Positions 550-7,889 of a stretch of 8,777 nt of DNA are shown piece by piece. A model generated the notes under the pieces. The model was given only the letters and a program-made list of their open reading frames with translations, did not search any database and had not been told where the DNA came from. Position 1 is the first letter of the stretch. Each line of letters starts with the position of its first letter. A program made the translations under genes and the position numbers. The stretch comes from Acidimicrobiaceae bacterium (GTDB lineage Bacteria; Actinomycetota; Acidimicrobiia; Acidimicrobiales; RAAP-2). The stretch is from contig PMFY01000364.1 in NCBI GenBank assembly GCA_003157945.1, forward strand, positions 1 to 8,777, written 5' to 3'.

Positions 550-615
550 GTTCATCGCGAACTCCCCGGATGTTCGTGTCCCGTTCACTCCTGGTTCACT
601 CTGCGTTCAGATGGC
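550..615 (+). promoter_or_regulatory. PHO box array, six 11-bp direct-repeat units, pst operon
   Basis: Six consecutive 11-bp units start at 550, 561, 572, 583, 594 and 605. Five begin with GTTC (GTTCATCGCGA, GTTCGTGTCCC, GTTCACTCCTG, GTTCACTCTGC, GTTCAGATGGC). The second (ACTCCCCGGAT) is degenerate. The strict 11-bp phase and the GTTCAC core match the direct-repeat-unit operators of PhoP in Streptomyces and PhoB/PhoP-type regulators generally. The array lies directly upstream of pstS, the classic phosphate-starvation target. Either response regulator in this window could be the binder; this is inference. Confidence 0.9.
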
Positions 616-620
616 CTCGG

Positions 621-626
621 TACCGT
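621..626 (+). promoter_or_regulatory. -10 element of the pst operon promoter
   Basis: TACCGT lies 5 nt after the last Pho-box unit, and 16 nt separate the starts of the two elements. The same spacing and nearly the same hexamer recur at two other Pho-box promoters in this window. No good -35 hexamer is visible, as expected for a promoter where the activator-bound repeats replace it. The predicted transcript start is near 632-635, giving a 5' UTR of about 72-75 nt before pstS. Confidence 0.65.
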
Positions 627-706
627 CGGTCGCGAGGACGGGCCCCCGCCGAATGACGGAGGGATCCCGTCCTCACCCGGTCACGAACACGGAGGACAGG
701 ACCCTG

Positions 707-1894
707 ATGAGAACCCGGAATGCCACGTTTGCCCGCAGCGGTCGACGCACGGCGTCGCTCGCGGCGATCGGCCTGGCTGCCGCAGCCCTGCTGTCGGCGT
801 GCAGTTCGTCGTCGTCGAGCTCGACCACGACGACCACCACCGCACCCGGCGGCACGCTCGCCGGCAACAACGCGGCCTACCTGGCCGCCGACCTGAAGGC
901 ACCGGGCGGCTCGCTCAACGCCTCGGGGTCCACCTTCGTCCAGCCGTTCTTCAGTGCGGCCTTCTACAAGTACACCGGTCTCAACCAGGCCCTGCAGGTC
1001 AACTACCAGGGGGTCGGCTCGGGCGCCGGCATCACCGCCTTCCAGTCGGGCACGGTGGCCTTCGCCGCCTCGGACGTGCCCATGGCGGCGGCGGACCTGG
1101 CCAAGATGCCGGCCAACTCCGGCCCGGTGGTCCAGGTCCCGGACATCCTGGGCGGTGTCGCCGTGGCCTACAACCTTCCCGGCGTCTCGACCCGGCTCAA
1201 GCTGGACGGACCGACGCTGGCCGGCATCTTCGACGGCACCATCACCACGTGGAACGCCTCGCAGATCACGGCCCTCAACCCCGGCGTCAACCTGCCGTCC
1301 CATGCCATCACCCCGGAGGTCCGGGCCGACAGCTCGGGCACGACGTACATCTTCACGGACTACCTGAAGTCGGCCGACCCGACGACATGGACGCTCGGCA
1401 CGTCCAAGACCATCGCCTGGCCGTCGTCGGCGGTGCAGACCCCGAAGAACTCGGGCGTGGCGTCGTCGATCCTCTCCACCCCGTACTCGATCGGTTACGT
1501 CGAGCTGTCGTACGCCATCCAGAACAAGATGAGCTACGCGGCCGTCAAGAACTCGGCCGGCACCTACGTGGTGCCCAGTCCGACCACGGTCGCCGCCGAC
1601 GCCGACCAGAAGACGGGCGTGTCGTCGACGGACTTCTCCATCGTGAACCAGGCCGGCACCTCCAGCTACCCGATCGCCGGGTACAGCTGGGCCATCCTGC
1701 TGCAGAAGCAGACCAGCGCCACCACGGGCGCCCAGGTGGTCAAGGTCCTGGACTGGACCACCCACTCCGGGGGCGGACAGGACCTGGCGTCGGGCCTCCA
1801 CTACGTGCCGCTGCCCCCGGCTGTGCAGAACCAGAACCGGACGCAGCTGCTGACCGTGACCGGCCCGAGCGGTCAGGCCCTGCTGACCAAGTGA
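707..1894 (+). CDS. pstS: phosphate ABC transporter substrate-binding lipoprotein PstS
   Basis: PstS is the extracellular, membrane-anchored phosphate receptor that hands phosphate to PstC/PstA. The reading frame is open far upstream, but the ATG at 707 is chosen because GGAGG lies 11 nt before it and it begins a proper lipoprotein signal: R-rich start, hydrophobic stretch (residues 16-30), lipobox L-S-A-C with Cys32. Seven serines and six threonines (33-45) follow, a low-complexity tether between lipid anchor and domain. The mature domain carries phosphate-binding signatures: ASGSTFVQPFF (72-82), GVGSGAGI (102-109), ASDVPM (121-126) and the RADSSGTT loop (206-213), where Arg and Ser/Gly/Thr contact the oxyanion. 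The length of 395 residues is normal for Gram-positive PstS. It is first gene of the operon, under the Pho-box promoter, and a stem-loop follows its stop codon. Confidence 0.95.
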   Translation: MRTRNATFARSGRRTASLAAIGLAAAALLSACSSSSSSSTTTTTTAPGGTLAGNNAAYLAADLKAPGGSLNASGSTFVQPFFSAAFYKYTGLNQALQVNYQGVGSGAGITAFQSGTVAFAASDVPMAAADLAKMPANSGPVVQVPDILGGVAVAYNLPGVSTRLKLDGPTLAGIFDGTITTWNASQITALNPGVNLPSHAITPEVRADSSGTTYIFTDYLKSADPTTWTLGTSKTIAWPSSAVQTPKNSGVASSILSTPYSIGYVELSYAIQNKMSYAAVKNSAGTYVVPSPTTVAADADQKTGVSSTDFSIVNQAGTSSYPIAGYSWAILLQKQTSATTGAQVVKVLDWTTHSGGGQDLASGLHYVPLPPAVQNQNRTQLLTVTGPSGQALLTK

Positions 1895-1920
1895 TCCGTC
1901 CGACGGATCCGGGTCGACCC
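1893..1920 (+). other. intercistronic stem-loop between pstS and pstC
   Basis: GATCCGT (1893-1899) and ACGGATC (1903-1909) form a perfect 7-bp stem around a 3-nt loop, starting inside the pstS stop codon. The palindrome GGGTCGACCC (1911-1920) follows directly. There is no T-run, so this is not a canonical terminator. It more likely stabilises the pstS 3' end or partly attenuates read-through, giving more PstS than PstCAB; that role is inferred. Confidence 0.6.
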
Positions 1921-1942
1921 CGGGCGGCGTGAGGCCCCCCGG

Positions 1943-2914
1943 ATGACCGTCGTCGAGGCATCGCCGTCCGCGCCCCTGGGGCGCGGACGGCGGCGCGCCC
2001 TGCCCGACCGGTGGTACCGCTCGCTGCTGGGCGTCATGGCCCTCCTGTTCGGGGCGCTGGCGGTCTGGTTCCTCGTCGCCATCATCATCCAGGCCAAGCC
2101 GGCGTTCTCCACGCTCGGGTTCTCCTGGATCTTCGGCAAGGTCTGGAATCCCGCCCACAACCAGTACGGTCTGCTCCCGTTCATCCTCGGGACGATCGAG
2201 TCGACGGCGATCGCCGTGGTGTTGGCGGTACCGATCGGCCTGGGCACGGCCATCTCACTGGCCTTCCTGGTGCCGTCCCGGGTACGGCCGTTCCTCTCCA
2301 CCACCGTCGAACTGCTGGCCGCGGTGCCGAGCGTCGTCTACGGCCTGTGGGGCCTCATCGTGCTGGCGCCCTGGTTCCGCGAGACCGTCGAGCCCTTCCT
2401 CACCTCGGCGTTCGGCTGGACCGGGCTGTTCGACGGTCCCAACCGGGGCGTCGGCCTGCTGCTGGCCGGCGTGATCCTGGCCATCATGATCCTCCCCACC
2501 ATGGTGGCCATCTCGCGCGACGTGCTCATCGTGGTGCCGAACGAGCAGGTCGAGGGGGCCATGGCCCTGGGCGCCACCCGCTGGCAGGTCCTGCGCAAGG
2601 TCGTGGTGCCCGGCGCCCGCACCGGCATCCTGGGGGCGTTCACCCTGGCCACCGGCCGTGCGCTCGGGGAGACGGTGGCCGTGGCCATGGTGATCGGTAA
2701 CGCACCCTTCATCGCCCACTCCCTCAAATCGCCGGCCGCCACGCTTCCCTCCCTCATCGTGAACAACTTCGGCGAGTCGACGGGCACCGAGCTGAGTGCC
2801 CTGTTCGGTGCCGGTCTCGTCCTCCTCGTCATCGGCGTGCTCGTCAACTCGGCCGCCCGCTGGCTGGTGTGGTCCACGGGAGCCGACGTCACCGGCACGG
2901 AGCTGGGCCGATGA
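1943..2914 (+). CDS. pstC: phosphate ABC transporter permease PstC
   Basis: PstC is one of the two integral-membrane subunits forming the phosphate translocation path. The 323-residue protein shows a cytoplasmic, basic N-terminus (1-25), a first membrane helix at about 28-50 and further hydrophobic segments near 78-108, 122-142, 170-190, 228-252 and 285-305, matching the six-helix PstC fold. The EAA-type coupling loop, which docks on the ATPase, is at 204-226 (EGAMALGATRWQ followed by VVVPGARTGI). It begins 48 nt after pstS, with a modest GAGG ribosome site at 1931-1934 before ATG 1943. Its stop overlaps the pstA start as ATGA, implying translational coupling. The operon order S-C-A-B is the usual one. 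Confidence 0.95.
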   Translation: MTVVEASPSAPLGRGRRRALPDRWYRSLLGVMALLFGALAVWFLVAIIIQAKPAFSTLGFSWIFGKVWNPAHNQYGLLPFILGTIESTAIAVVLAVPIGLGTAISLAFLVPSRVRPFLSTTVELLAAVPSVVYGLWGLIVLAPWFRETVEPFLTSAFGWTGLFDGPNRGVGLLLAGVILAIMILPTMVAISRDVLIVVPNEQVEGAMALGATRWQVLRKVVVPGARTGILGAFTLATGRALGETVAVAMVIGNAPFIAHSLKSPAATLPSLIVNNFGESTGTELSALFGAGLVLLVIGVLVNSAARWLVWSTGADVTGTELGR

Positions 2915-3822
2915 CAGCCGTCCTCGATCCGCCGGCCGACCCGGTCGTCGAGCGGCGACGGGCCGTACAGGCCGCCGCGGCATCGAGCCTGGGGAGGCGC
3001 AAGGTCGCGTCGACGGTGGCCCTCGGGATCTGCTGGCTCTTCCTGGCCATCGCCATCATCCCGCTGGTGGCGGTCATCGCCTACGTGATCGCCAAGGGAC
3101 TGCCGGCCTGGAACCGCGACTTCTTCACCCACTCGACCGTGCCCGAGGGCTACCCGGGCGGCGGCGTGTGGAACGCCATCGTCGGGACGGCGGTGATCAC
3201 CGCCGTCGCCACCGCCGTGGCGGTTCCCGTCGGCCTGACCTGCGGGCTCTTCCTCGCCGAGTCCGACGGCCGGGCCGCGGCCACGCTGCGGTTCACCGCC
3301 GACGTGATGACGGGTATCCCGTCGATCATCGTCGGCATCTTCGGCTACATCGCCATCGTGCGGAACTTCGGCGGCTACAGCGGCTTCGCCGGTGCCTTCG
3401 CCATCGGCTTCATCATGCTGCCGGTGATCACCCGGGCCGGGGAGACGGCCTTCCGCGGCGTGCCGCGCTCGCTCAACGAGGCGGCCCTCGCCCTCGGGGC
3501 CCGTCGCTCCACCGTGGCCCGGAAGGTCGTGGTGCCGACGGCGCTCCCCGGGGTCATCACCGGCGTGCTGCTGGCCGTGGCCCGCGGCCTCGGTGAGACG
3601 GCGCCCCTCCTGCTCACCATCTTCGGCAACCAGTACCTGCAGTGGAATCCGGCCAAGTCGATGGAGGCCCTGCCCATCCTCATCTACAACTACTCGAACC
3701 AGCCCTACGCCGATCTCGTGCAGGTGGCCTGGGGCGCGGCCCTGTTGCTGATGACCGTGGTGCTCGTCCTCAGCATCGGTAGCCGCGTGCTCGCCGCCTA
3801 CCTTCGTAAGGAGCGCCGATGA
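2911..3822 (+). CDS. pstA: phosphate ABC transporter permease PstA
   Basis: PstA is the second permease subunit, pairing with PstC. The frame is open from 2869, but the ATG at 2911 is preferred because it overlaps the pstC stop codon (ATGA) and has GGAG at 2899-2902. This gives 303 residues. The N-terminus is hydrophilic (1-32), with a first membrane helix at about 34-62 and further hydrophobic segments near 88-116, 131-150, 158-174, 212-238 and 268-298. The EAA loop is at 190-213 ([12 protein letters not shown] followed by [13 protein letters not shown]), and [10 protein letters not shown] (226-235) is a typical PstA stretch. It overlaps pstB by ATGA at the 3' end, so C, A and B are likely made stoichiometrically. 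Confidence 0.95.
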
Positions 3823-4676
3823 CCGACGCCAGATCCCGAATCCCCCACCTCGAGGAGTCACTGACCGTGCGAGCCGAACAGGCCATCATCGAGCCGCCCA
3901 CCGGCGAGGTGGTGATGACGCTGCGCGACGTGGCCGTGGCCTTCAGCGGCCGCACCGCCGTCCGTGACGTGACCTTCGACGTCGCCGCCGGCGAGGTGAC
4001 CGCCCTCATCGGCCCGTCCGGTTCCGGCAAGACCACCCTGCTGCGGGCCCTCAACCGCATGCACGACACCGTGCGGACGGCGTCGGTGACCGGGGCGATC
4101 CATCTCGGCGACCTCGACGTCTACGGCCCCGACACCGATGCCACCCTGCTGCGCAGCCGCGTGGGGATGGTGTTCCAGCGCCCCAATCCCTTCCCCACGA
4201 TGAGCATCTACGACAACGCCGTGTCGGGGCTCCGCTTCAACGGTGTACGGAAGAAGGCCCTGCTCGACGAAGCCGCCGAGTCCTCGCTGATCGCCGCCGC
4301 ACTGTGGGACAGCGTCAAGGACCGCCTGAAGGCGCACGGCAGCACCCTGTCGGGCGGCGAGCAGCAGCGCCTCTGCATCGCCCGCGCCCTCGCCGTGGAG
4401 CCGGAGGTGCTGCTGATGGACGAGCCCACCTCGGCCCTCGACCCCATCGCCACCAAGCGGATCGAGGAGCTGGTGGGTGAGCTCAAGGACCGCGTGACGA
4501 TCGTGATCGTGACCCACAACATGCAGCAGGCCATGCGCGTGTCCGACCGCTGCGCGTTCCTGCTGATGGGGGACGACAAGGCCGGCGAACTGATCGAGTT
4601 CGGCCCCACGGCCAAGGTCTTCAGCGAGCCGAAGGATCCGCGCACCCTCGACTACGTCAACGGCCGCTTCGGCTGA
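3819..4676 (+). CDS. pstB: phosphate ABC transporter ATP-binding protein PstB
   Basis: PstB is the cytoplasmic ATPase that powers phosphate import through PstC/PstA. All ABC motifs are intact in its 285 residues: Walker A GPSGSGKT (65-72), Q-loop Gln120 within [18 protein letters not shown], the signature LSGGEQQ (177-183), Walker B VLLMDE (about 197-202), D-loop SALD (205-208) and switch His233 in VTHNM. The [14 protein letters not shown] stretch and the terminal [13 protein letters not shown] are characteristic of PstB rather than other ABC ATPases. The ATG at 3819 is chosen because it overlaps the pstA stop (ATGA) and has AAGGAG at 3808-3813, 5 nt upstream. This leaves about 30 extra residues before the ABC core. 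A phoU gene commonly follows pstB but does not here; the next gene is convergent, 14 bp away. Confidence 0.96.
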
Positions 4677-4690
4677 GGGACCGTTCGGCG

Positions 4691-5536
4691 TCAGGCGGTC
4701 ACCGTCTCGTCGGCGTCCCGGCCACCGGCGGGTGGCGGCTCACCGAAGGTCCCGTCCGGGTCGATGCGGAAGCCGACCCCGCGCACCGTCACGATGAACC
4801 GGGGCTCCGTCGGCACCGGTTCCAGCTTCGACCGGAGACGGTGGATGTGGGTGTCGAGCGTCCGGGTGTCCGTCAGGTAGGTGTCGGGCCAGAGCAGGTC
4901 GATCAGCTCGTCGCGTGACCGGACGCGTCGGGCCGGGTGGAGGAGGACCGCCAGCAGGTCGAACTCCTTGCGGGACAGGTGGACCGGGGTACCGCCCACC
5001 GTCACTTCGCGTCGCACGTAGTCGACGCTCACCGAGCCGAACCGGGCGACCCGGTCGGCCGAGGACGCGTCGCCGCGCGTCGACCCGAGGTCGTGCGGCC
5101 AGGCGGGACCGTCGGTGACGACCGGGGGTGCCAGCGGCAGCGGACCGAGGCCGTGGGGGGAGACCCGGCGAAGGATGGCGTGCATCCGGGCGACGAGCTC
5201 GCGGAGCCGGAACGGTTTGGTGACGTATCCGGAGGCGCCGAGTTCGAGACCGAGGACGACGTCGAGCTCGCTGTCGACGGCGCTCACCATGAGGATCGGC
5301 ACCTCCGAGACGGCCCGCAACCTGCGGCAGACGTCGATGCCGTGCATGCCGGGGAGCAGCATGTCGAGGAGCACGATGTCGGGACGGTGCTCCTCGAAGC
5401 GACGGATCCCCTCGGGGCCGTCCTCGGCCAGGATCACGTCGAAGCCCTCGCGGCCCAGCCCGGAGGCGAGGGCCTGGCGGTAGGACTCCTCGTCCTCCAC
5501 GACGAGGACCTTGACGGCTGCATGCTCCGGCGGCAC
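4691..5536 (-). CDS. OmpR/PhoB-family response regulator RR1 (PhoP/RegX3-like), candidate phosphate regulator
   Basis: This is a DNA-binding response regulator of 281 residues. The receiver domain (about 8-125) has acidic residues Glu14 and Asp15, phosphoacceptor Asp58 in LLDMLLPGMHG, Ser85 and Lys107 in TKPF. The C-terminal winged helix (about 165-258) shows SRKEFDLLAVLL, the recognition region TRTLDTHIHRLRSKLE, and VRGVGFR. The linker (about 126-164) is long and Pro/Gly-rich, making the protein longer than the usual 225-240 residues. The GTG start at 5536 has a strong GGAAGGAGG site (5542-5550) 5 nt upstream. The gene has a Pho-box promoter like that of pst, which implies autoregulation and argues that it is the PhoP/PhoB equivalent. 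No partner histidine kinase lies in the window. It is convergent with pstB across 14 bp, with no clear terminator between. Confidence 0.93.
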   Translation of the reverse strand: MPPEHAAVKVLVVEDEESYRQALASGLGREGFDVILAEDGPEGIRRFEEHRPDIVLLDMLLPGMHGIDVCRRLRAVSEVPILMVSAVDSELDVVLGLELGASGYVTKPFRLRELVARMHAILRRVSPHGLGPLPLAPPVVTDGPAWPHDLGSTRGDASSADRVARFGSVSVDYVRREVTVGGTPVHLSRKEFDLLAVLLHPARRVRSRDELIDLLWPDTYLTDTRTLDTHIHRLRSKLEPVPTEPRFIVTVRGVGFRIDPDGTFGEPPPAGGRDADETVTA

Positions 5537-5556
5537 CGGCGCCTCCTTCCCCGGAC

Positions 5557-5562
5557 ACGGTA
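5557..5562 (-). promoter_or_regulatory. -10 element of the RR1 promoter
   Basis: On the minus strand TACCGT follows the last Pho-box unit after 5 nt, with 16 nt between element starts, exactly as at pstS. The predicted transcript start is near 5549-5551. That leaves a leader of about 14 nt which consists mostly of the ribosome-binding site. Confidence 0.65.
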
Positions 5563-5567
5563 CGGAG

Positions 5568-5622
5568 GCCAGGTGAACGCCGGACGATCCGAGGGGAACC
5601 CCCGGGTGATCGTTCTGTGAAC
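5568..5622 (-). promoter_or_regulatory. PHO box array, five 11-bp units, RR1 promoter
   Basis: Reading the minus strand, five contiguous 11-bp units start at 5622, 5611, 5600, 5589 and 5578: GTTCACAGAAC, GATCACCCGGG, GGTTCCCCTCG, GATCGTCCGGC and GTTCACCTGGC. The outer units are near-perfect Pho-box units and the middle one is degenerate. The last unit and its flank (GTTCANNTGGCCTC then TACCGT) are almost identical to the pst promoter. This implies that the pst regulator also controls RR1. Confidence 0.82.
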
Positions 5623-5645
5623 GTCAGGTGGCAATCGACGGACTC

Positions 5646-5673
5646 CCTGGTCAGCGACGGGCCGCCGACCAGG
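5646..5673 (-). terminator. stem-loop after the fluoride-channel pair, possible terminator
   Basis: CCTGGTC (5646-5652) and GACCAGG (5667-5673) form a perfect 7-bp stem with a 14-nt loop, 2 bp beyond the stop codon of the downstream fluoride-channel gene on the minus strand. There is no T-run, so it is a weak or factor-assisted terminator at best. Its place between that stop and the RR1 Pho box fits insulation of RR1 from upstream transcription. Confidence 0.45.
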
Positions 5674-5675
5674 TG

Positions 5676-6044
5676 TCAGAGGGCGACGCCGGCCAGGAGG
5701 CCGAGCGCGGCGGCGCCGAGCCCGAGCACGAGGCTGGCTCCGACGTTGGCCGCCGCCCCACCGGGCCGTCCGCGCTCGGCCAGGCCCACGGTGTCGAAGG
5801 CGAAGGTCGAGAACGTGGTGAACGCGCCGAGCAGTCCCGTCCCCACCACGGTGAGGACCGCGCCGGGAACGCCCCGGTGGTCGGCCAGGCCGGTGAGCAG
5901 CCCGAGGACGAACGCGCCCGTGACGTTGATGACCAGGGTGCCCCAGGGGAACTCGGGCCCGAGGCGTCGCCGGACGTGCAGCTCCACCTCGTAGCGCAGG
6001 AGCGCCCCGACGGCCCCGGCCAGGAGCAGTCCGACCACGATCAC
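5676..6044 (-). CDS. crcB: fluoride ion channel CrcB/FluC, second gene of a tandem pair
   Basis: This is a small membrane protein of 122 residues, the usual size for CrcB/FluC, which lets fluoride leave the cell. It has four hydrophobic segments (about 1-17, 35-54, 62-87 and 98-121). Family signatures are GALLRYEVE near the N-terminus, WGTLVINVTGAFVLG (34-48) with the conserved Asn40, and GAFTTFSTFAFD (73-84), which holds the phenylalanine/threonine pore residues and the turn that binds the central sodium ion. The start is the GTG at 6044, which overlaps the stop codon of the preceding crcB copy by 4 bp (GTGA), so translation is probably coupled. Fluc channels are dual-topology dimers; paired genes in Gram-positive bacteria may form heterodimers. 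The pairing here suggests that but does not prove it. Confidence 0.93.
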   Translation of the reverse strand: MIVVGLLLAGAVGALLRYEVELHVRRRLGPEFPWGTLVINVTGAFVLGLLTGLADHRGVPGAVLTVVGTGLLGAFTTFSTFAFDTVGLAERGRPGGAAANVGASLVLGLGAAALGLLAGVAL

Positions 6045-6610
6045 GACGCGTCACCCGGTCCCGTCGTCCGGGGAGCCGCCTCGCCCGGGTCGTCACCGGC
6101 CAGGAGGTCGGGGTCGACCGGGCCCGGGCCACCCGGAGCGGGCAGCACCCGGCCGCGGGCGAGGGTGATGCCGGCCAGGGCCGCGCCGAGGCCGGCGAGG
6201 AGGCTGGCCGCCAAATAGGCCGCGGCGGCACCGGAGTGGCCGTGGCGGATCCGCTGGTCGATCTCGACGGCGAAGGTCGAGAAGGTGGTGAACCCGCCGC
6301 AGAACCCGACGGCCACGAGGGGCCGGAGGTACCGGTCACGGGGCCACCGCTCCGTCACCAGGGTCACCACCACACCCAGCACGAACGAGCCGATGACGTT
6401 GACGGACAGCGTCGCCCACGGGATGCCGGAGGGGTCGGCGACGACGGACCGCTCGAACGCGTACCGGGCGAGCGTGCCGAGGGTACCGCCCACACCGATG
6501 GCGGCCAGGGGCCCGGGTCCGTGGTGGGGGTGGAGGACGGCGCGGGCCTGCCGGGTTGCGTCCGCGTGGTCGGCGCTGGCCTGTCCGTCCGTCCCGGTCG
6601 ACTCGGGCAC
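6041..6610 (-). CDS. crcB: fluoride ion channel CrcB/FluC with extended N- and C-termini, first gene of the pair
   Basis: This CrcB/FluC homologue has 189 residues. The core (about 34-153) carries GGTLGTLARYAFE (41-53), WATLSVNVIGSFVLG (65-79) with the conserved Asn71, and GFCGGFTTFSTFAVE (102-116), the pore-lining Phe/Thr box. It is longer than typical CrcB because of a hydrophilic, His/Ala-rich N-terminal tail of about 33 residues and a Pro/Gly/Asp-rich C-terminal tail of about 35 residues. The frame is open to 6787, but the GTG at 6610 is chosen because AAGGAG lies 5 nt upstream; the upstream extension is Arg/Pro-rich with no family similarity. The GTGA overlap couples it to the downstream copy. 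The gap to RR2 is 216 nt, so either an own promoter or read-through is possible. A weak fluoride-riboswitch resemblance in that gap is discussed in the findings. Confidence 0.9.
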   Translation of the reverse strand: MPESTGTDGQASADHADATRQARAVLHPHHGPGPLAAIGVGGTLGTLARYAFERSVVADPSGIPWATLSVNVIGSFVLGVVVTLVTERWPRDRYLRPLVAVGFCGGFTTFSTFAVEIDQRIRHGHSGAAAAYLAASLLAGLGAALAGITLARGRVLPAPGGPGPVDPDLLAGDDPGEAAPRTTGPGDAS

Positions 6611-6751
6611 CGCTGCTCCTTCGGGTGGCGACGCATGCCGGGCCGTCGGCGGGGCGCGGACCCCTCGGGCGGGTCCGGTCGTCGTGCCGCTCGGCCGTCG
6701 GCCCGAGGAGTCTACGGCAGGGTGCCCCGGGCGCCGTGGACGTCCCTCACC

Positions 6752-6832
6752 CCGTAGGGGCCCGCCCGGGGGCCACGCGACGTCCACTGGGGGAGGGCAG
6801 GGGCGGACGCGGCGCCGGGCGGGCCCCTACGG
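6752..6832. repeat. 18-bp perfect inverted repeat with 45-nt spacer, at the RR2 3' end
   Basis: The left arm is CCGTAGGGGCCCGCCCGG (6752-6769) and the right arm its exact reverse complement (6815-6832). The right arm contains the RR2 stop codon (TAG, read at 6829-6827). As RNA the arms would form a very GC-rich 18-bp stem. A second pair, GTGGACGTC (6736-6744) and GACGTCCAC (6779-6787), straddles the left arm, so mutually exclusive folds are possible. There is no T-run on the minus strand after the stem. It may terminate or attenuate transcription between RR2 and the crcB pair, or be a copy of a dispersed palindromic element. Confidence 0.85.
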
Positions 6833-7576
6833 TTTGAAGCGGTAGCCCACGCCTCGGACGGTGATGAGGTGGACGGGCTCGGCCGGGTTCAGTTCGATCT
6901 TCTTCCGCAGCCGCTTGACGTGGGTGTCGAGGGTCCGGCTGTCCCCCTTCTTGCGGTCCCGCCAGATGCGGTCCATGCACTGCTTGCGGGTCACGACGTG
7001 GCCGGCCTCCGACACCAGCAGCGTCAGCAGGTCGAACTCCTTGCGGGACAGCTCCAGGTCGCGCCCGTGCATCGAGGCCTCACGCCGCGACACGTCGACG
7101 GTGACGGGTCCGAAGGTGTAGGTGCCGTTCGGAGCGGGAGAAGCCGTGTGCTGGGGCTGGCGGCCCACCCGGCGCAGGACGGCGCGGATGCGGGCCGTGA
7201 GCTCGCGCGGTCGGGGAGGTTTGGTGATGTGGTCGGCCGCTCCGGCCTCGAGGGCCAGGACGGCGTCGAGCTCATCGTCCTCGTCGGTGATCATGATGAC
7301 GGGGAGCCAGGGGGTGGCCGTGGTGATCCGACGGAAGACCGCGAACCCCTCGGAGTCGCCGATCTGGGTGTCGAGGATCACCAGCGACGGGGACCCGGTG
7401 GCCGCCAGGGCGATGCCCTCGGCGCCGGTGGACGCGGTGATCACGTCGAACCCCTCGATCGAGAGGGTGGCGGCGAGTGAGTCGCGGGTGAGGTGGTCGT
7501 CGTCGATGATGAGGATGACGGGGGCCTCCTCGCCGGGGACGGCCCGTTGCTCGACTTCGCGGAACGTCAAGGTCAC
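6827..7576 (-). CDS. OmpR/PhoB-family response regulator RR2
   Basis: This is a second DNA-binding response regulator, 249 residues from the chosen start. The receiver domain (about 18-136) has Asp25 and Asp26, phosphoacceptor Asp69 in LVILDTQIGDSEG, Thr97 and Lys119. The usual KPF after the lysine is KPP here, and the post-Thr position is Asp instead of Ala. The winged helix (about 155-249) has SRKEFDLLTLLVSEAG, SRTLDTHVKRLRKKIELN and the terminal VRGVGYRFKP. The start is uncertain. The GTG at 7576 has no strong ribosome site but overlaps the stop of an 80-codon ORF by GTGA. An in-frame GTG at 7792 would add 72 low-complexity residues and is less likely. A Pho-box-like promoter lies upstream. 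No histidine kinase is adjacent. Similarity to RR1 in the winged helix suggests a related operator, but the target is unknown. Confidence 0.9.
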   Translation of the reverse strand: MTLTFREVEQRAVPGEEAPVILIIDDDHLTRDSLAATLSIEGFDVITASTGAEGIALAATGSPSLVILDTQIGDSEGFAVFRRITTATPWLPVIMITDEDDELDAVLALEAGAADHITKPPRPRELTARIRAVLRRVGRQPQHTASPAPNGTYTFGPVTVDVSRREASMHGRDLELSRKEFDLLTLLVSEAGHVVTRKQCMDRIWRDRKKGDSRTLDTHVKRLRKKIELNPAEPVHLITVRGVGYRFKP

Positions 7577-7815
7577 CGACGGGCCCTGACGTCCCGGAAC
7601 AGGGTGCACGCCGCCGCGCCGCCGACGTGGCGGCGGGACCGGGCGGACACGCCGCTGCTGGACTGCCGGACCGGCGGGACCGGTGCCGGCCGGGTCGCCG
7701 TGAGAGGCGCCGGGGTCCATGCCCCGGGACGGCAGGTGGTGGTGCGTGCGGTGTCCGGCGCGGGCCCGGCGGCCCGGCGGGAACGCTGACACTGGGCCTG
7801 GTGGTGCGCTGCCAT
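7573..7815 (-). CDS. hypothetical 80-residue leader protein overlapping the RR2 start (uncertain)
   Basis: This small ORF starts with an ATG at 7815 and ends with a TGA (7575-7573) that overlaps the RR2 GTG as GTGA, the same junction style used elsewhere in the window. The predicted transcript start of the Pho-box promoter is near 7817, so its mRNA would be leaderless or nearly so, a common arrangement in actinomycetes. Hand-counted third-position G+C is about 89 percent, slightly higher than in the competing frame (about 82 percent). The product is basic and rich in Ala, Arg and Pro, with three cysteines, and shows no recognisable domain, signal peptide or membrane helix. Against it, composition of this kind also arises by chance in GC-rich DNA. 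The ORF may be a real small protein, a coupling leader for RR2, or nothing. Confidence 0.35.
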   Translation of the reverse strand: MAAHHQAQCQRSRRAAGPAPDTARTTTCRPGAWTPAPLTATRPAPVPPVRQSSSGVSARSRRHVGGAAACTLFRDVRARR

Positions 7816-7823
7816 CCCTGTGG

Positions 7824-7829
7824 ACAGTA
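7824..7829 (-). promoter_or_regulatory. -10 element of the predicted RR2 promoter
   Basis: On the minus strand TACTGT follows the last repeat unit after GTCCG (5 nt), with 16 nt between element starts, matching the pst and RR1 promoters exactly. The predicted start of transcription, near 7817, falls 1-3 nt before an ATG (7815). The RR2 GTG lies about 240 nt downstream. Confidence 0.5.
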
Positions 7830-7834
7830 CGGAC

Positions 7835-7889
7835 GGTAGGTGAACAGGACGCGATCGCTCTGTTATCGGACGGTAATCATTGGTGAATT
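7835..7889 (-). promoter_or_regulatory. PHO-box-like array, five 11-bp units, upstream of RR2
   Basis: Reading the minus strand, units start at 7889, 7878, 7867, 7856 and 7845: AATTCACCAAT, GATTACCGTCC, GATAACAGAGC, GATCGCGTCCT and GTTCACCTACC. The first and last carry the TTCACC core and the three middle ones are degenerate but begin GAT in phase. The promoter-proximal unit and flank resemble the RR1 promoter closely (GTTCACCT, then CCGTAC, then GT). It is weaker than the other two arrays when taken alone. Confidence 0.6.

Follow-up and report, generated by a model that had tools for sequence, protein, structure and literature searches.

Three promoters of one actinobacterial locus share the same geometry, and the question is whether they do so by chance, by common descent or because a regulator demands it. 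The locus lies in a window of 8,777 nucleotides (nt), the whole stretch of DNA analysed here (contig PMFY01000364.1 of assembly GCA_003157945.1, from an Acidimicrobiaceae bacterium), and holds a pst phosphate-transport operon and the genes of two OmpR-family response regulators, RR1 and RR2. Upstream of pst, RR1 and RR2, a GTTCA repeat is followed at a fixed distance by a -10-like hexamer. Judged on sequence, this promoter design is confirmed, conserved, functional-looking and of a known kind, and the three sites are very probably class-II PHO-box promoters under phosphate-starvation control by an OmpR-family regulator.

Analysis of the window revealed three occurrences of GTTCA-N11-TACYGT, starting at 605 on the forward strand and at 5578 and 7845 on the reverse strand, and allowing up to one mismatch returned the same three matches and no more. 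The -10 hexamers are TACCGT at 621, TACCGT at 5562 and TACTGT at 7829, each exactly 16 nt past the start of GTTCA; both the letters and the spacing had been claimed in an earlier note on this DNA, and its statement that a -35 hexamer is lacking was also borne out, none being visible. Three of the five TACYGT hexamers on the two strands of the window occupy the 16-nt place. Dinucleotide shuffling of the window (200 shuffles) gave a mean of 0.03 matches. The repeats run head to tail as 11-nt direct repeats, strong at pst and with some weak half-sites at RR1 and RR2. The pst promoter (550..626, forward strand) has half-sites in 11-nt register at 550, 572 (GTTCG), 583, 594 and 605, that at 561 being weak, and its -10 hexamer at 621-626. 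The RR1 promoter (5557..5622, reverse strand) has half-sites at 5622, 5611 (GATCA), 5600 (GGTTC), 5589 (GATCG) and 5578 and the hexamer at 5562-5557; the RR2 promoter (7824..7878, reverse strand) has half-sites at 7878 (GATTA), 7867 (GATAA), 7856 (GATCG) and 7845 and the hexamer at 7829-7824. The last repeat reads GTTCACC at RR1 and RR2, and pst has GTTCACT/GTTCAGA, in keeping with the GTTCACC-like half-site of actinobacteria. The fixed 16 nt from last repeat to -10 with no visible -35 hexamer, and the position before phosphate genes, agree with a class-II PHO box.

The independent test of the spacing lies in the relatives, because TACYGT had been picked after the sites had been seen. Of 34 loci returned, the 11 acidimicrobial ones (PstS 69-91% identical; Acidimicrobiaceae/Acidimicrobiales metagenome-assembled genomes) were used for comparison, and 23 more distant loci (PstS 33-47% identical in the best segment) were excluded. 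The pst promoter was readable in 10 of the 11 relatives' loci, L010 being cut upstream of pstS. With the window counted, TANNNT stands at offset 16 in 11/11 pst, 9/9 RR1 and 7/7 RR2 promoters, and at any other offset from 6 to 29 in two RR2 promoters only, both at offset 7. The relatives' RR1 and RR2 sites were located by a pattern that itself includes the spacing; however, a site is present in all eight acidimicrobial loci with an RR1 orthologue and all six with an RR2 orthologue, tblastn finding no orthologue in the other loci, and thus no locus was dropped by that pattern. Comparison of the 11 pst promoters revealed mean matches to the five letters of GTTCA of 4.73, 2.91, 3.55, 4.64, 3.64 and 4.73 at -55, -44, -33, -22, -11 and 0, against an off-register mean of 1.04. 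At RR1 the half-sites at 0, -33 and -44 are strong and those at -11 and -22 (2.33 each) do not rise above the highest off-register values; at RR2 the half-sites at 0, -33 and -11 are evident and that at -22 (2.71) equals one off-register offset. The last pst repeat is exactly GTTCA in 9 of 11 promoters, GTTTA in L007 and GTTTC in L008, and the -10 letters vary within TANNNT (TACCGT, TACTGT, TACGGT, TAGGGT, TAGCGT and others).

The earlier note had also offered GTTCA-N11-TACYGT as a searchable regulon signature, and in this literal form the proposal was rejected. A total of 17 matches were found in the genomes of the 11 relatives, against four for the reversed control, and a scan of spacings from N5 to N17 gave 60 matches over the twelve others (mean 5.0; highest N12, with 12). 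Eleven of the 17 are the pst, RR1 or RR2 sites in the fetched loci, and one (G008) precedes another OmpR regulator; the remaining five, two inside predicted open reading frames (ORFs) and three outside, equal the background mean per spacing. The genome closest by PstS (G001) and G002 gave three of three literal matches each at this locus, and the second closest (G011) only one of three, because the -10 letters of its pst and RR1 promoters differ. The relaxed form GWTCR-N6-GTTCA-N11-TANNNT gave 10 matches in the 11 genomes, all 10 at this locus, with one control match and with no match in 5 of the 11 genomes. For tandem GTTCAY by itself the count was 35, against four for the reversed control; it was rejected as a Pho-specific marker, because several of the inspected sites adjoin non-phosphate genes, and its spacing counts, skewed by coding periodicity, were set aside. 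In L126 (5099) and L127 (4673) such repeats occupy the gap that separates a glutamine synthetase-like gene from NAD synthetase; those of L126 are followed by GTAAC-N6-GAAAC, which resembles a GlnR box. An array, TTACCCTACGTTCACC, recurs in three genomes (L119 4760, L121 4416, L123 5199), in L119 upstream of a gene for a PAS-GAF-HD-domain protein, and GTTCACACGGCGTTCAY occurs in 5 of the 11 genomes (L118, L120, L122, L124, G005:C172).

A refined form, GTTCACCT-N4-YYC-N-TANNNT, was derived from the relatives' RR1 and RR2 promoters. In 100 family genomes it gave 53 matches, distributed over 40 genomes with 60 genomes having none, and the reversed control gave none. Widening N4 to N1-N7 raised the count to 59: 53 at N4, which corresponds to 16 nt, and six altogether at the six other spacings (1, 1, 3 and 1 at N2, N3, N6 and N7), the reversed control giving eight matches over all seven spacings. 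The same-strand downstream gene is an OmpR regulator matching RR1 or RR2 at 33 of the 53 matches and PstS or PstB at 10, and in all 48 precede response-regulator, pst or phosphonate-type genes, five of these having been judged individually. At G062 the downstream regulator is cut by the contig end and was read by eye; the protein at G022 belongs to the PstS family, scoring above the cut-off of PBP_like_2 and, with 44.5 bits, below that of TIGR02136; the binding protein at G032 is nearest to 2-aminoethylphosphonate models (66.8 bits, below cut-off), and that at G042 was judged similar to it by eye only; at G083 a gene for a PhnY-like hydroxylase (230.1 bits) precedes one for a PhnZ-like HD oxygenase (195.1 bits), neither reaching its cut-off. 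Once the matches that tblastn classed as regulators are set aside, 20 remain, 14 of them of pst or phosphonate type, and without the 13 matches in the 11 derivation genomes the count is 35 of 40 before regulator, pst or phosphonate-type genes. The regulators downstream of these matches would presumably have a phosphate role. The expectation that hits concentrate upstream of phosphate genes thus held for the refined form and not for the literal one, and the predicted phosphatase, phoU, glycerophosphodiesterase and polyphosphate targets did not appear, none of the 48 being so classed. In G049:C13, G095:C14 and G098:C3, pstB and pstS are each preceded by a PHO-box promoter, the two pointing in the same direction and lying 925 base pairs apart.

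RR1 (4691..5536, reverse strand) starts at GTG with a Shine-Dalgarno motif, GGAAGGAGG, upstream, and RR2 (6827..7576, reverse strand) comprises 249 amino acids from GTG 7576, where no Shine-Dalgarno motif was seen; the RR2 query used in homology searches began three codons upstream of this GTG, which was judged harmless. The two are paralogues, identical at 108 of 237 aligned residues, and share 87 of 226 (RR1) and 71 of 222 (RR2) residues with PhoB of Escherichia coli. Both keep PhoB D53, K105, W184, R193, T194, H198, R201, R203, T217 and R219, some of which touch DNA; the receiver aspartate (D53) and lysine (K105) are thereby present in both, and most recognition-helix positions are kept as well. 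The best solved-structure relative of RR1 is RegX3 (2oqr), and many RR2 relatives carry the source label RegX3.

We propose that under phosphate limitation a phosphorylated OmpR-family regulator, be it RR1, RR2 or both, would most likely bind the 11-nt repeats head to tail. Its promoter-proximal subunit would replace the -35 element and recruit the housekeeping sigma factor, which would read TANNNT as the -10 element, and a rigid contact between regulator and sigma factor would then hold the last repeat 16 nt from the -10. The outputs would be the PstSCAB transporter and RR1 and RR2 themselves, which would constitute a positive feedback.

Several results weigh against phosphate control by a PhoB-type regulator. 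Of the PhoB residues tied to polymerase contact in excerpts of PMC3348028 (W184, G185, V190 and D192), only W184 is kept in RR1 and RR2, and R200 is kept in neither. RR1 (185.8 bits) and RR2 (160.2 bits) fall under the cut-off of the NCBIfam PhoB model TIGR02154 (296.2), short of equivalog assignment, and the best NCBIfam model of RR1 is MtrA, also below cut-off. In four of five relatives, a search for the HisKA family only found no member on the locus contig (contigs of 47-142 kb), and in the fifth, G007, a HisKA kinase lies on the locus contig about 66 kb away; each genome has 8-10 HisKA kinases in all. No kinase was found among ten genes flanking locus L001 that were scanned in Pfam (one matched nothing; two further flanking ORFs were not scanned), none of ten scanned window ORFs was named as a kinase, and in the relatives examined no two-component operon with a sensor kinase gene beside the regulator was seen. 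PhoU-like genes occur in 11/11 genomes, all below cut-off, and in the 10 genomes with a locus contig number they lie on contigs other than the locus contig. Five of the 53 refined matches precede genes without evident phosphate link: G024 (collagen-like), G087 (VIT family) and G052:C51, G061 and G073:C218, the last three without clear assignment. Beyond the family the enrichment of the exact letters at 16 nt is only weak: a wider sample of 296 genomes of the phylum, counted without the known family genomes G001, G020 and G049, gave 12 matches at 16 nt versus 35 over six other spacings, and the exact letters of the refined signature are therefore largely family-specific.

The alternative that survives best is that a different member of the OmpR family, MtrA- or GlnR-like and binding tandem half-sites of 11 nt, uses the three sites as operators and that the phosphate link is incidental; we consider it unlikely. 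The MtrA model match of RR1 is in its favour, as are the tandem GTTCAY repeats at non-phosphate genes, such as those in the gap between the glutamine synthetase-like and NAD synthetase genes, and MtrA of Streptomyces coelicolor also uses short direct repeats 5 nt apart (excerpts of PMC5650626). However, the half-sites fit GTTCACC and not the MtrA consensus quoted in those excerpts, RegX3 is the nearest solved relative of RR1, and with a -10 at 16 nt the matches precede pst, phosphonate-type and regulator genes. A recent duplication of one DNA segment, which would make the equal spacing a matter of shared ancestry and not of functional constraint, is very improbable: although all three sites lie inside 7.3 kb and RR1 and RR2 are paralogues, the stretch from repeat to -10 varies in sequence from site to site and drifts across relatives, whereas the 16 nt do not, and the same distance is common to other pst, phosphonate-type and E. 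coli promoters. A coincidence picked post hoc is hardly credible, as the earlier note had held, for although hexamer and spacing were chosen after the sites had been seen, none of the 200 shuffles reached three matches, all 10 relaxed genome-wide matches fall at this locus, refined matches number 53 at 16 nt against six elsewhere, and conservation in relatives already refutes it.

The RR2 promoter also appears to drive an unannotated leader ORF of 80 codons (7573..7815, reverse strand), whose ATG at 7815 lies 8 nt after the -10 and whose TGA (7575-7573) overlaps the RR2 GTG at 7576. Where a start codon follows the -10 by 6-8 nt the mRNA would be leaderless, and that of RR2, which opens with this ORF, appears to be so. 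The leader is open in all eight aligned species, window included (80 codons in seven, 78 in one). In six aligned species, frame 0 has no stops and an amino-acid identity of 0.489, against five and three stops and identities of 0.400 and 0.389 in the other frames, and substitutions by codon position number 425, 389 and 534; these comparisons are moderate evidence that the leader is translated. Column shuffling of the alignment reached the observed identity in 0/2000 cases and was without stop in 19/2000, and the identity result is not counted as proof of coding because shuffling also breaks clusters of conserved columns. The leader has no protein-database relative at E 0.01 (10 candidates) and no Pfam match, and a conserved RNA fold was rejected, having no covariation support (covariation term +1.23, six sequences).

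On its own an NTGA overlap proves little, as most bases in front of TGA complete a start codon, and the reading frame into the regulator was therefore checked at 23 promoters (21 family matches, the window and L002), each having a downstream regulator and, 28-30 nt after GTTCA, a start codon. At 17 of the 23 the frame set by the NTG that overlaps the leader stop runs into a receiver domain within 90 residues, three of these 17 having a Shine-Dalgarno-like motif at the overlapping regulator start; G077 reaches the domain at residue 94, and G084, G079, G053, G030 and G042 fail the in-frame test. The remaining regulator promoters, RR1 included, have no start codon with such an overlap at the same place. 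At five promoters (G083:C8:147652, G032:C342:5915, G042:C41:20722, G031:C27:16210 and G087:C28:41142) the ATG of the downstream gene itself lies 28-30 nt after GTTCA, and their mRNAs would therefore also be leaderless. We hold tentatively that the PHO-box promoters of many family response-regulator genes may give leaderless mRNAs in which a leader of 26-118 codons gates regulator translation; as the leader stop overlaps the regulator start codon, regulator synthesis would then depend on leader translation. If so, the autoregulated phosphate regulator would be under a translational gate, possibly sensing translation state, in addition to the feedback of two self-feeding orphan regulators. The unannotated leader ORF is a new and directly testable lead. 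In the open-licence literature no paper on leaderless regulator mRNA or leader peptide coupling under phosphate starvation was found by title or abstract start.

The gene order in the window is the end of an alpha/beta hydrolase-like gene, pstS-pstC-pstA-pstB (forward strand), RR1, two crcB genes and RR2 (all reverse) and the start of a glucose-6-phosphate isomerase gene (forward). pstS (707..1894) matches TIGR00975 at 305.7 bits (cut-off 205), and pstC, pstA and pstB (1943..4676) match TIGR02138, TIGR00974 and TIGR00972, each above cut-off. The two crcB (fluoride exporter) genes (5676-6787) lie between the phosphate-type regulators, and Rfam at gathering thresholds gave no match in the window, hence no known fluoride riboswitch near crcB.

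The earlier note's reading was too strong in that the design is found beyond this locus, E. coli having the same spacing: in MG1655 the best TATAAT match 8-26 nt past the last TGTCA lies at 16 nt at pstS (TATAAC), phoA (TATAGT) and phoB (CATAAT). A PHO box consists of two 11-nt direct repeats, GTTCACC in S. coelicolor (excerpts of PMC4415409), PhoB sites overlap the -35 region in phoA (PMC3348028, in part), and structural models support a strict spacing between pho box and core promoter in E. coli (available text of PMC10294691). Together with the E. coli match, this work identifies the observed invariant as the known class-II pho-box rule. No paper joining Acidimicrobi with PHO box was found in the open-licence literature; the known design now appears in a little-studied group, a soil actinobacterium related to Acidimicrobiaceae, and the corrected signature, which works across the family, offers a specific means of searching for phosphate-gene promoters in uncultured Acidimicrobiaceae. 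The mycobacterial SenX3-RegX3 system resembles the present one in that RR1 is nearest to RegX3 among solved structures and many RR2 relatives are so labelled, but no kinase partner was found beside RR1 or RR2. The PHO boxes of Streptomyces PhoP are likewise GTTCACC 11-nt direct repeats, with unit number and organisation varying between operators (PMC4415409, same excerpts), whereas the regulators here are without a neighbouring kinase. Compared with E. coli PhoB class-II promoters, the half-site is GTTCA here and TGTCA there, and the phoB-like genes are here two orphan paralogues without an adjacent phoR-like kinase. The likeness lies in tandem 11-nt repeats, the last of them over the -35 zone, in the 16 nt from repeat core to -10 and in pst and the regulator gene itself being among the targets; E. 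coli pho-box geometry thus appears to hold in a distant phylum despite different half-site letters.

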